Assembly: GCA_029907355.1 (NCBI GenBank)
Contig: JARYLZ010000002.1
Span: forward strand, 1 to 64,000
Reading direction: 5' to 3'
Source: Bacteroidota bacterium
GTDB lineage: Bacteria; Bacteroidota; Ignavibacteria; SZUA-365
DNA length: 64,000 bases
Made by a program: the position numbers and the translations under genes
Notes under the pieces: model-generated
Told to the model about the DNA's origin: nothing
The model's input: only the letters and a program-made list of their open reading frames with translations
Database searches by the model: none
Part shown: piece by piece, positions 4,440 to 38,492 of the stretch
Position numbering within the stretch: position 1 is the first letter of the stretch
Layout of the letters: each line of letters opens with the position of its first letter

Positions 4440-6269
4440 ATGAAGCGCACGCGGTGTCTTTTCGTCCTCCTTCTCGCCGGGAGTGCGGCATTCGCACAGG
4501 GCATTCCATCCACGATGAACTACCAGGGTTATCTGACCGACCTCGCGGGTGCCCCCTACAACGGCGTTGAAACCATCACGTTCTCGTTCTACACAGTACA
4601 GGCAGGAGGTACGCCGATATGGACGGAGGTGCAGGACGTTCCGGTCATCAAAGGGCTGTTCACGGTTGTTCTCGGGGCCATCAATCCCCTCACCCTGCCT
4701 TTCGACCAGCAGTATTATCTCGGGATCAGGGTCGGTGCGGACCTTGAACTCGCACCGCGCGTACGGTTGACGTCATCAGCGTACAGCATGCGCGCGCGAA
4801 TGGCTGAGGATATTATCGACGGAGCTATCACAGCGCCAAAGATCGCAGATAATGCCGTCACCGGACCGAAAATCGCCGATGGGGCTGTCGGAACTCCCCA
4901 GATCGTGAACGGGGCAGTGATCGCTTCCAAGATCGCCGACAACGTCATCACCGCCAATCACATTGTTCCAGCGATCGTTTCCAGCATCAACAACGTCACG
5001 AACGACGGGGGAAACATCAACCTGGTCGCAGGGGCAAATGTATCCATCACGGCGGACGACGCAGCCAACACGATTACCATCGCCGCGACACCCGGAGGCG
5101 GCGGCCTGACCCTACCGTACAGCAACACGACCGCGAGCACGGCTACCGCCTTCAGCATCGAGAACACGGGCACCGGCAGCGCAGGCGAATTCACCATCAC
5201 CAACACATCGTCCGTCAAACCAGCGCTGAGCGTGAAGAGCAACAGCACAGCCCCAAACGGAGACGGGATCGCCGTGGAAGCCGTGGCAGGGAACGCCGTG
5301 CAAGCGATCAACAACAGTGCAGACATGGCGGCGATCGCTGCGATGAACACGGGAGAAGGCATGACCGCTTCATTCGTGAAAATGGGTCCCTCTGCGGGTG
5401 ATTTATTACGCATGTCGAGCGCGGGTGGTACCGGGAAGGGTATCAATCTCACGTATTCCGGCACCACCCAAGGCATCTTTACTGCCGTCCCATCTACCGC
5501 ATCAGCAACCGGTATGGAAGTCGATATGAACGGGACAGGCGCGGCGGCATACTTCCACGTCGACCACACCTCATCGGACAAGAGCTGCCTCAGAGCCGTA
5601 TCGAATAGCACGGATAACAATAGCGACGCTCTGGAAACGGTCGCGGTGAACGGAAATGCCGTGGATGCTCGGAACAATTCTGCGGCGTCCCCGACGATTT
5701 TCGCATTGAACAGTTCCACCGCATCCAATTCCTCGGCAGGGTATTTCGAATCGGCCGGAATGAGCGGAACCATCCGGTCGATGAATACAAGCGCTAATCC
5801 GAACTCTCATATCTTCGAGGGGTATGCCGGGACGACGCAGGTCTTCCGCATGTACAACAGTGGGAATTTCTATTCCGCTGGCGGGTTGTATTCCGATCAT
5901 GCAGTACTCCGGCAGGATCTGGGGAGCTCGGACACACCGATGAGCGGGGGATACTACCGCGACAATGTCGTCTATGCATGGGCGAACGTCTCGTCGGCCG
6001 GTCAGCTCGCCGGCGGTACGGCGGGTTTCGGCTGCACGGTGACCAAGACCGCGACAGGGACATACGATATCAGTTACAAGAAAACCATGAGCGGCTACGC
6101 CTATGCACCCATGGCGATAGCGTTCGAGGGGACTTCCCCTCAATTCGCCGTCATTTCCTCAGCAAGCAGCACCGGTTGTACCGTGAAGATCTGGAAATAC
6201 AGCACAACGACGAACACGTTCTCCCTGACGGACAGCCAGTTCTTCTTCATCTTGTGCGGGCGTCCGTGA
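4440..6269 (+). CDS. Secreted fibre-like protein with phage-tail-type C-terminal domain
   Basis: 609 residues with a signal peptide (MKRTRCLFVLLLAGSAAFAQ). The mature N-terminus (IPSTMNYQGYLTDLAG...) is typical of large secreted proteins in Bacteroidota relatives. Residues about 120-165 contain decapeptide-like repeats of the type IxxxKIADNAV, known from trimeric fibres. Residues about 225-460 contain two or three loosely repeated segments of the form NST..GNAV.A.NNS followed by an alternating beta pattern, compatible with a fibrous beta-helix. The last 100 residues (VYAWANVSSAGQLAGG..., ending FFFILCGRP) resemble the C-terminal domain of phage tail fibres, which ends in FxFVVFG. There is no T9SS tail, so its export route is unclear. 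It lies 29 bases before another secreted protein gene. Confidence 0.8.
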   Translation: MKRTRCLFVLLLAGSAAFAQGIPSTMNYQGYLTDLAGAPYNGVETITFSFYTVQAGGTPIWTEVQDVPVIKGLFTVVLGAINPLTLPFDQQYYLGIRVGADLELAPRVRLTSSAYSMRARMAEDIIDGAITAPKIADNAVTGPKIADGAVGTPQIVNGAVIASKIADNVITANHIVPAIVSSINNVTNDGGNINLVAGANVSITADDAANTITIAATPGGGGLTLPYSNTTASTATAFSIENTGTGSAGEFTITNTSSVKPALSVKSNSTAPNGDGIAVEAVAGNAVQAINNSADMAAIAAMNTGEGMTASFVKMGPSAGDLLRMSSAGGTGKGINLTYSGTTQGIFTAVPSTASATGMEVDMNGTGAAAYFHVDHTSSDKSCLRAVSNSTDNNSDALETVAVNGNAVDARNNSAASPTIFALNSSTASNSSAGYFESAGMSGTIRSMNTSANPNSHIFEGYAGTTQVFRMYNSGNFYSAGGLYSDHAVLRQDLGSSDTPMSGGYYRDNVVYAWANVSSAGQLAGGTAGFGCTVTKTATGTYDISYKKTMSGYAYAPMAIAFEGTSPQFAVISSASSTGCTVKIWKYSTTTNTFSLTDSQFFFILCGRP

Positions 6270-6298: not shown

Positions 6299-8120
6299 AT
6301 GAGATATATAACAACACTGATCAAAGTGCTCGCGGCGGTATCTTTTCTCTTCCCGTCGACGGTGCACGGCCAAAGCCGCATCGACTGGCAGGCGCATGAT
6401 GCTTGTGGGGCAGGACCTGCATCGAGTGCGAGCCAGATCTTGTACACCTCGGCAGGCCAGCCGATCGGAGGATTCTCAGGCGGCTCGGCGACGCTCCTGT
6501 CGGGCTACCTCTCCGTACTCATGGTACCTTCAGGAGCACCGACCATCGTTGCACAATCGTCTCTCGATTTCGGAACCGTCATCGTAGGTCAGGATGCAAC
6601 ACGACAGATGACGGTCTCGAACAGCGGGTCACTCCCACTCGATATCACGGGGACATCAATCTCTCCTTCTGTTTTCACCCTCGTTTCCGGGGGGGGGCGC
6701 ACAGAGAATCAACCCTGGCGGATCCATCGTGATGACCCTGCGCTTCGCCCCTGCAGCTGCAGGGTCAATCTCAGGGGCTCTCGTCATCACGAGTAACGCG
6801 TCCAATGCCCCAATACACACGGTCACGCTCACCGGCAACGGCATGATTTCCGTACCCGCGATATCTCTCAGCGCTACGATGCTCGATTTCGGCTCGGTGG
6901 AGCTCGGTTCGTCAGCCATACGGAGTCTCACGATATCGAACTTAGGCAATGCCCCCCTGAACCTGACCGGCCAGTCCCTCACCGGGGCACACGCCTCGGA
7001 CTACACGATTGTCCGTATGAGCGGGACACCCATTGCACCGGCCGGAAGCGACTACATCGAAATCCGTTTCGCACCGTCTGCAACGGGTGTGCGGACGGCT
7101 TCTCTCCTCATTTCCAGCAACGACCCGAACACCCCTGTGTCAACCGTCTCGTTGGCCGGTTCGGGGACCTCCACCGCCCAGCCCCACATTTCCGTCAGCC
7201 AGAACACGATCGATTTCGGTACGACGAACCCGGGTACGCCCGTGGACCGCGACCTTGTGATCAGCAACACCGGAACCGCCGCGCTCGTCCTTGTCGGCCA
7301 GAACGTCTCGGGGACATCGTTTCTTCTCCTCACGCCCGCCGTGGGTACCATCGCGCCTGGCGGGAATTCTATTGCTCGTATCAGGTTCGACCCCCCGTCC
7401 ATGGGATCCTTCGCGGGCACTTTCCTGGTCTCGAGCAACGACCCTGTGTCCCCCACGGTAGCCGTCTCCCTCCACGGTGTGGGCGGCGGTTCCACCGGCC
7501 CGCGGCTGGCGCTCGGCGCGACGGTGCTCGACTTCGGCGCAGTGCCTATCCTACAGGCGAAGGAATTGGACCTGGAGATCCGCAATATCGGGACCTCGGA
7601 TCTCGTCATCAGCTCGCAGTTGATCGCCGGTACGGACGCTCTCCATTTCTCGATCGTCCAGGCAGCAGGCTCGCCAGTCATTCCCGGTGGGAGAACCGCG
7701 GTACGGGTGAGGCACCTTCCTACCTCGGCAGGTCCGAAAGTCGCTCTGCTCCGTCTTACGACGAACGATCCCGGCCTACCGACTGCAGAAGTCGCGCTCA
7801 TTTCCACCGCCGTAGGCAGTGATGAACCTCCCTCGCCGCCGCCTGCCACGCGCATCCTCGGAGCATACCCAAACCCCTTCTCCTCGATCACCACGCTCAC
7901 GTATTCCCTGGAAACATCCGCCGAAGTGGAGCTTTTTGTGTACGACATCCACGGGCGGGTTTCATCATCGAACTATCAAGGGACACGGGATGCGGGATGC
8001 TATATCGTGACGTTCGACGGTTCCCGCCTTCCCCGTGGGGCTTATGCGGTGGTACTCAAGGCATTTACAAAGGATGGTCGTCGCATGACCCATGTAACGA
8101 CCATCCACTGCGTGCACTGA
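6299..8120 (+). CDS. Choice-of-anchor D (HYDIN-like) repeat protein with T9SS tail, interrupted by a frameshift
   Basis: The frame starting at ATG 6299 begins with a signal peptide (MRYITTLIKVLAAVSFLFP, cleavage near HGQ) and runs into a run of nine G at 6689-6697. It continues there out of frame to 6796, while the true continuation (AQRINPGGSIVMTLRFAP) lies in the next frame and runs to 8120. With eight G the reading is continuous and gives about 606 residues. The body is four tandem 105-residue beta-sandwich modules with the signature LDFG...G....R.LTISN.G..PL.......IAPGGS....RFAP...G......I.SND, as in choice-of-anchor D proteins. The C-terminus has a T9SS tail (AYPNPFSS...LFVYDIHGRV...LPRGAYAVVLKA). 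Phase variation, recoding or an assembly error in the homopolymer are all possible. An automated annotation may show two genes, 6299-6796 and 6729-8120. Confidence 0.8.
6689..6697 (+). repeat. G9 homopolymer at the frameshift
   Basis: Nine consecutive G inside the first repeat module of the choice-of-anchor-D gene. Removing one G joins the two frames exactly at a conserved Gly-rich turn. Long G tracts are classic slipped-strand phase-variation sites in surface genes, and also classic sequencing-error sites. Confidence 0.85.
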
Positions 8121-8308: not shown

Positions 8309-9257
8309 ATGAAAAAGGCGCCGCTCGCTTCCTATCTGTTCATCCTCGTCATTCTCTGCACCCTTTTCACGGCAGGAGCGAAAATGCTCGACCAACAAGG
8401 AATGTATCTCGCTCAGGCATACATGTTCACCCCTGCTGCAGCGGCATTCTTGACACGGGTGTTCTTCTATGAGCCGAAGTTCAGGGATGCGGACCTTCGT
8501 TTCCGGAAAGCACGAGAATACCTCGCGTTCTGGCTCGCCTCGCTCGGTATCACTGCGTTTTCATGCATCCTGTTCGCCGTACAGGAGCAGTGACATGGGA
8601 TTGGTCCGGTCAATCGTTCCTTCAAAGACTTGCAGGGCAGTTCTCTGCAGAAGGCAAAGACATTCATGACGGCCTCCCCCCGGTTTCACGCCGGAAACGA
8701 TGCTCATCGTCTTCTTCATCGGTGGGCTGACGGTGTTTCACATCCTGCCCGGTTTGCTCAACGGCTTCGGAGAGGAGTTCGGTCACCGTGGGTTCGTCTT
8801 CCCGCTCCTCTACTGGGAAAAACCCTGGGCAGTGTTCGTCGTCGGGGGGCTGATCTGGTACGCGTGACATCTGCCGCTCGCCTTCCTCATCCCTCAGAAT
8901 GTCTCCTCTACTCTGCAGCAAACCGTTCTCAACCAGATCACCTTGATCATCGGTTCCGTTCGCGCGTTCACCTACCCCGCCTTCGTCTACGTGAAGAGCA
9001 GGAGAGTCTGGGACGCCTCGCCGGCACACATCGCCATGAACAACTCCGCACAGTCGTTTTCGTACTTCACCGTTCTCGACGACCACCTCCTCGCCAATCT
9101 CGGTCTGGTCTCGACGATGATCATCATGGTGAGTCTTCTTTACATTTACGGAGGCTTCAAGATATTCACGAAATATTTCGCAAGTGATGGTACAGGAAAC
9201 GTTCCCCTGATAGAGACGAAAAACGGTATGCCCATGACATCTTTGCCGACACGGTGA
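8309..9257 (+). pseudogene. CPBP family intramembrane metalloprotease (CAAX protease-like), decayed
   Basis: Three collinear pieces in different frames make one CPBP protein. The first (8309-8593, MKKAPLASYLFILVILC...) contains the N-terminal membrane helices. The second reads in another frame from about 8593 (WDWSGQSFLQRLAGQFSAEG) and ends at a C6 run at 8676-8681; a seventh C would rejoin it to the third. The third (about 8682-9257) holds the catalytic core: GEEFGHRGFVFPLL (EExxxR motif), a second motif LIWYA-stop-HLPL, and HIAMNN. The stop is a TGA at 8865-8867 where the family normally has Trp (TGG). Two frameshifts plus an in-frame stop in the active-site motif point to a pseudogene. CPBP proteins cleave or process membrane substrates and occur in bacteriocin immunity and prenyl-protein processing. 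Confidence 0.75.
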
Positions 9258-38115: not shown

Positions 38116-38492
38116 GTGGGTGAGCCCTTGTCCGCCGTAGGGGGTGGACTTTCCTCTATATATTCGACAGGGGCATCTCCCCATAGTTTCTCGAGGTTAT
38201 AATAGCTCCGGACGCGTGGCTGAAAAACATGGCACACTACATCGACGAAATCCAACAGAACCCATTGTAGACCTCCGTACCCTTCCGTTTTCCACACATG
38301 TACACCCCGCTCCCGCATTCCTTCATCGATGGCATCTGCGATCGCCTTTACCTGCACGTCCGTTTCCCCCGTGCAGATCACGAAATAGTCCGTCACGTCG
38401 GACAAGTTCCGTAAATCGAGAATGATAACTTCCCCTGCCCTTTTCACGAGAGCGCATTCCGCAATCGCTCGAGCTGTTTCTCGTGATGTCAA
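38112..38492 (-). CDS. rsfS: Ribosome silencing factor RsfS (Iojap)
   Basis: 126 residues. The Iojap core is intact: ILDLRNLSDVTDYFVICTGETDVQVKAIADAI, then GVHVWKTEGYGGLQWVLLDFVDVVCHVFQPRVRSYYNLEKLWGDA (only partly quoted motifs are diagnostic: LRxLSDVTDYFVIC and LLDFVDVVxHVF). RsfS binds uL14 on the large subunit and blocks joining in stationary phase. It shares a four-base overlap with argS. Confidence 0.95.
   Translation of the reverse strand: MTSRETARAIAECALVKRAGEVIILDLRNLSDVTDYFVICTGETDVQVKAIADAIDEGMRERGVHVWKTEGYGGLQWVLLDFVDVVCHVFQPRVRSYYNLEKLWGDAPVEYIEESPPPTADKGSPT

Follow-up and report, generated by a model that had tools for sequence, protein, structure and literature searches.

A nine-G tract that breaks a choice-of-anchor-D gene in a Bacteroidota genome: a possible one-off slip in a chance run of glycine codons

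In the 64,000-nucleotide stretch of Bacteroidota DNA that we have analysed, hereafter called the window, a tract of nine G at positions 6689-6697 of the plus strand breaks the reading frame of a gene that encodes a choice-of-anchor-D protein. The frame break, the intact orthologs of the gene, their gap-free alignment to the reading with eight G and the lack of conservation of the tract are all direct observations; the explanation that we prefer, and in which we place a middling confidence, is that the extra G is a recent, one-off replication slip in a tract of glycine codons that arose by chance. The normal form of the gene would be an intact, 606-residue secreted protein, in which three adjacent glycine codons (GGG GGG GGC) happen to create a run of eight G; an ordinary, recent and single replication slip would have added one G in the sequenced genome, shifting the frame of everything beyond residue 130-132 and leaving a 165-residue product that lacks the sorting tail. 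Rather than being one position of a switch under selection, the nine-G allele would then represent either a gene that has recently lost its function or a variant carried by a minority.

The interrupted gene and its product

The tract is flanked by TTTCC immediately on its 5' side and by CGCACAG immediately on its 3' side; when it is read with eight G, the site becomes TCC GGG GGG GGC GCA CAG, i.e. Ser-Gly-Gly-Gly-Ala-Gln. As printed, the upstream frame (6299-6796, plus strand) starts at the ATG at 6299 and encodes 165 residues: an N-terminus that, as read from the sequence, looks like a signal peptide, the first half of the first choice-of-anchor-D domain and an out-of-frame tail of 33-35 residues. 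The downstream frame (6696-8120, plus strand) is open up to the stop at 8120, and contains the remainder of the first domain, more choice-of-anchor-D/Hydin-ASH domains and a T9SS type A-like tail (about 7866-8063, plus strand).

The product has been computed for each tract length: 164 residues for six G, 143 for seven, 606 for eight, 165 for nine, 144 for ten and 607 for eleven. The long protein (606 or 607 residues) is obtained only with eight or eleven G, while tracts of 6, 7, 9, 10 and 12 G give 143-166 residues; the length of the repeat tract sets the reading frame, as it does in simple-sequence-repeat phase-variable genes. This computation bears out the preliminary description of the window, according to which the removal of one G joins both frames into a 606-residue product at a glycine turn.

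The frame break inside one gene is real in the sequence as printed, because the openness of the downstream frame is improbable by chance (about 1.5e-8, computed, for 474 downstream codons that lack a stop) and because the same domain family is matched on both sides of the tract. On the 5' side of the tract, residues 82-130 are matched by the choice-of-anchor-D profile NF012200, which also matches four segments on the 3' side; the upstream part scores 34 bits and the downstream part 192.3 bits, the latter being over the cut-off of 45 that identifies a choice-of-anchor-D protein; Hydin/ASH-type Ig domains (Pfam; PF22544) are also matched. The splitting of the gene by the G9 tract, first pointed out in the preliminary description, has been confirmed by these matches in the sequence. 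A gene boundary, or two separate genes, is ruled out: one domain crosses the tract and the orthologs are single genes.

The product had also been described as a cargo protein of the T9SS, and its architecture agrees with this: like T9SS type A cargo proteins with choice-of-anchor-D (HYDIN/ASH Ig-like) repeats, the joined product has a probable signal peptide, Ig-like repeats (NF012200, PF22544) and a C-terminal YPNPF tail. It differs from such proteins in that its frame is broken in the assembly and in that its tail scores just below both profiles that we have applied (TIGR04183, 22.3 bits against a curated cut-off of 23; PF18962, 25.6 against 27). The cargo assignment draws further on the ortholog in one relative (G001), the tail of which is above the TIGR04183 cut-off with 45.2 bits, and on SprA, which identifies a T9SS translocon in the genome (TIGR04189, 1046.8 bits). 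The profile search with TIGR04183 gave no match in the ortholog of a second relative (G006); in the genome, the tail region is matched at numerous other places.

Orthologs, the age of the lesion and a broken neighbour

Our ortholog comparison covers 11 relatives from the family, the genus being represented by one genome and near-identical records lying outside the collections. The orthologs of G006 and G001 are syntenic and intact, the former with 621 residues and 46% identity to the downstream part, the latter with 397 residues and fewer repeats. At the site of the tract, the codons are GCG AAC GGC GGC GCG CAG in G006 and TCG GGA GGA GGG CCG CAA in G001; since both orthologs align to the eight-G reading without a gap, eight G is the ancestral-like length. 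No long G run occurs at this site in either of the two syntenic relatives, which encode the turn as AAC GGC GGC and GGA GGA GGG, and thus the run is private to the sequenced genome; the comparison of the tract with related genomes, which the preliminary description had proposed, has found it not kept. These intact, gap-free orthologs and the private run argue for a one-off slip, as does the codon usage: GGG accounts for 31% of the glycine codons and two successive GGG are expected at about 10% of the sites with three glycines, so that a chance run of eight G at such a site requires no selection.

A fibre-like gene is located directly 5' of the choice-of-anchor-D ortholog in both G006 and G001; its likeness to the gene upstream of the interrupted one in the window (4440-6269, plus strand; 609 residues, beginning MKRTRCLF...MNYQGYLTDLAGAP) has been judged by N-terminus and position. 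Three genera of the family have retained the fibre-like gene (window 4440-6269; L081:10166-12286; L082:7434-9149) as a pair with the choice-of-anchor-D gene, and the fibre-like gene gives a weak match to a model of an adhesive trimer fibre.

Over the 1,422 bases of the downstream frame up to 8120, a search for further pseudogene decay has found no second stop or frame change, and the identity to G006 is alike before the tract (47%, 50/106) and just after it (51%, 52/101); therefore, the extra G is either recent or not real, and the gene, if taken as a pseudogene, can only have become one very recently. The bound on its age is loose, since the survival probability of an unconstrained frame, estimated by stop density, is 0.26-0.40 at 5% neutral divergence and 0.07-0.16 at 10%. 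We infer that the additional G is a genuine change of recent origin, with the reservation that the lack of further decay suits an error or a switch equally well.

Real damage does occur in this region, since the gene directly downstream, encoding a CPBP/Rce1-like intramembrane protease (PF02517; 8309-9257, plus strand), is broken. Its first frame ends at 8593, the frame changes at about 8590 and again at a run of six C (8676-8681), and an in-frame TGA occurs at 8866, past which the PF02517 profile continues (23.4 bits up to the stop, 39 bits across it). We have joined the first two pieces, neither of which matches PF02517, by reading the sequence; the C-terminal piece has no homologs in 297 genomes of the phylum nor, when searched alone, in plasmids, and it weakly matches CPBP proteins when it is read across the TGA. 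The gene looks genuinely broken, by lesions that are not all homopolymer indels, and the nonsense codon among them is in keeping with a one-off slip next to it, although the decay of the CPBP gene says nothing direct on the G9 tract. On the plus strand, a coding-potential scan of the 64 kb has found no further convincing break; on the minus strand, it flagged two candidate switches, near 38150 and 57780.

Long G runs in the genome and the accuracy of the assembly

A second explanation, which we regard as possible yet rather doubtful, is that the organism has eight G and that the metagenome assembly has inserted one. It is favoured by the nature of the change, i.e. a single base in a homopolymer of an otherwise perfect gene in a 173-contig assembly; some consensus sequences are known to contain frameshifts that stem from homopolymer indels (PMC9262707), and one lesion of the CPBP gene, at the run of six C, likewise occurs at a homopolymer. 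The other CPBP lesions, a nonsense codon and an indel outside homopolymers, are not of this type, and the behaviour of the assembly at other long runs also counts against an error. Genome-wide, 115 runs of G or C reach a length of at least 8, and 17 of them a length of at least 9, with 13 of the 17 being coding and four located outside coding sequence or in unclear places. Twelve of the 13 coding runs (length 9-13) are in frame, and the G9 of the window is the sole gene-breaking one; the assembly is thus usually correct at long G runs, a point in favour of a slip. Among the 43 runs of 8 or more that were scored by coding potential, 34 are within unbroken frames and the others are at gene boundaries or outside genes, which rules out a genome-wide homopolymer failure of the assembly; here too, the window's G9 alone breaks a gene. 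A same-strand frame switch at another tract (L072) has been rejected as a break, since an RlpA-like gene ends normally there and the next gene follows. The preliminary description had aptly named both a homopolymer error and a pseudogene as alternatives.

The G9 tract itself is no more than the chance expectation: 0.70 runs of at least nine G or C are expected in the window from a first-order (dinucleotide) model, and one is observed. With the window's dinucleotide expectation scaled up to the genome, about 36 such runs are expected and the 17 observed are about half of this number; long G runs are depleted, with no excess, unlike in C. jejuni, where an excess of long G runs has been reported (PMC6321876). 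In-frame long runs occur in genes that we have named, by reading their sequences, as M16 peptidase-like, flippase-like, MenD/MenH-like, ABC ATPase-like and RlpA-like, and long G runs are not acting as switches in this genome.

Two other runs are mentioned here for their positions. A G9 tract (L101:935-943; G000:C172:934-943, minus strand) is located a few bases 5' of the position at which a sodium/solute symporter-like gene probably starts; translation could depend on the tract length there. A run of 13 G at the start of a contig (L004:22-34, contig G000:C107) is located within an open frame, 22 bases from the contig end; further length-variable sites may be concealed where contigs end at runs of this kind.

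Phase variation, recoding and mismatch repair

In a third explanation, phase variation as suggested in the preliminary description, the tract would slip reversibly between eight G (full cargo) and nine or ten G (short product), and would have been selected as a surface-protein switch; we consider this improbable. The gene does resemble the poly-G phase-variable genes of Campylobacter (PMC6321876), with a G9 in a coding frame, a length within the switching range of that genus, a likely surface protein and a one-base on/off control of the full product. It encodes a secreted repeat protein, the tract occurs early in the gene with the remainder intact, and two more choice-of-anchor-D genes carry runs of 9-10. 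Unlike in Campylobacter, there is no excess of G runs (17 against about 36), the tract is not conserved in the orthologs, and runs of 9-10 are in frame within housekeeping-type genes. A phase-variable T9SS cargo gene is unsupported by these comparisons: two syntenic relatives lack the tract, all but one of the 13 coding runs are in frame and the break is a singleton. In the GeneTack survey, singleton frameshifts are read as recent indels or sequencing errors (PMC3711429); our gene shares with such singletons, and with recent pseudogenes, the single frame transition, the intact homologs as validation and the absence of the shift from relatives, with no difference beyond the homopolymer position.

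The main reason why phase variation has been placed no lower is that mutL is undetected: the best match is 19.9 bits, with none over the cut-off in the assembly, while MutL is over the cut-off in 14 of 15 relatives of the order, G008 also being without it. The assembly is 98.9% complete and consists of 173 contigs, and therefore the absence of MutL may be an assembly gap; it may also be a real loss, which would raise slippage. MutS1 is intact in the genome, and this counts against phase variation.

Three of the 13 coding runs of at least nine are located in choice-of-anchor-D proteins (the window's gene, L099 and L100), at unrelated positions, the run of L099 being C on the coding strand; the two genes outside the window (C44 and C112) keep the run in frame, while that of the window does not. 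That a lineage without MutL exploits the slippage of chance G runs in its Ig-repeat secreted proteins, as a recently arisen phase variation of T9SS cargo, seems to us a long shot. Least probable by far is recoding, where slippage on the G run during translation or transcription would yield some full-length protein from the nine-G gene: slippery homopolymers are capable of this in principle, but a net skip of one base is required, the third frame reaches a stop within about 12 codons, there is no conserved frameshift site and the orthologs are plainly in frame.

In our full-text search of a paper collection, none of the papers in it mentioned phase variation and homopolymeric tracts together with type IX secretion. 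A long G run in a broken surface gene is no evidence of a switch before its orthologs, and the base rate of such runs in the genome, have been checked; if phase variation were true here, the gene would be a T9SS-cargo switch in a free-living, uncultured lineage of Bacteroidota.
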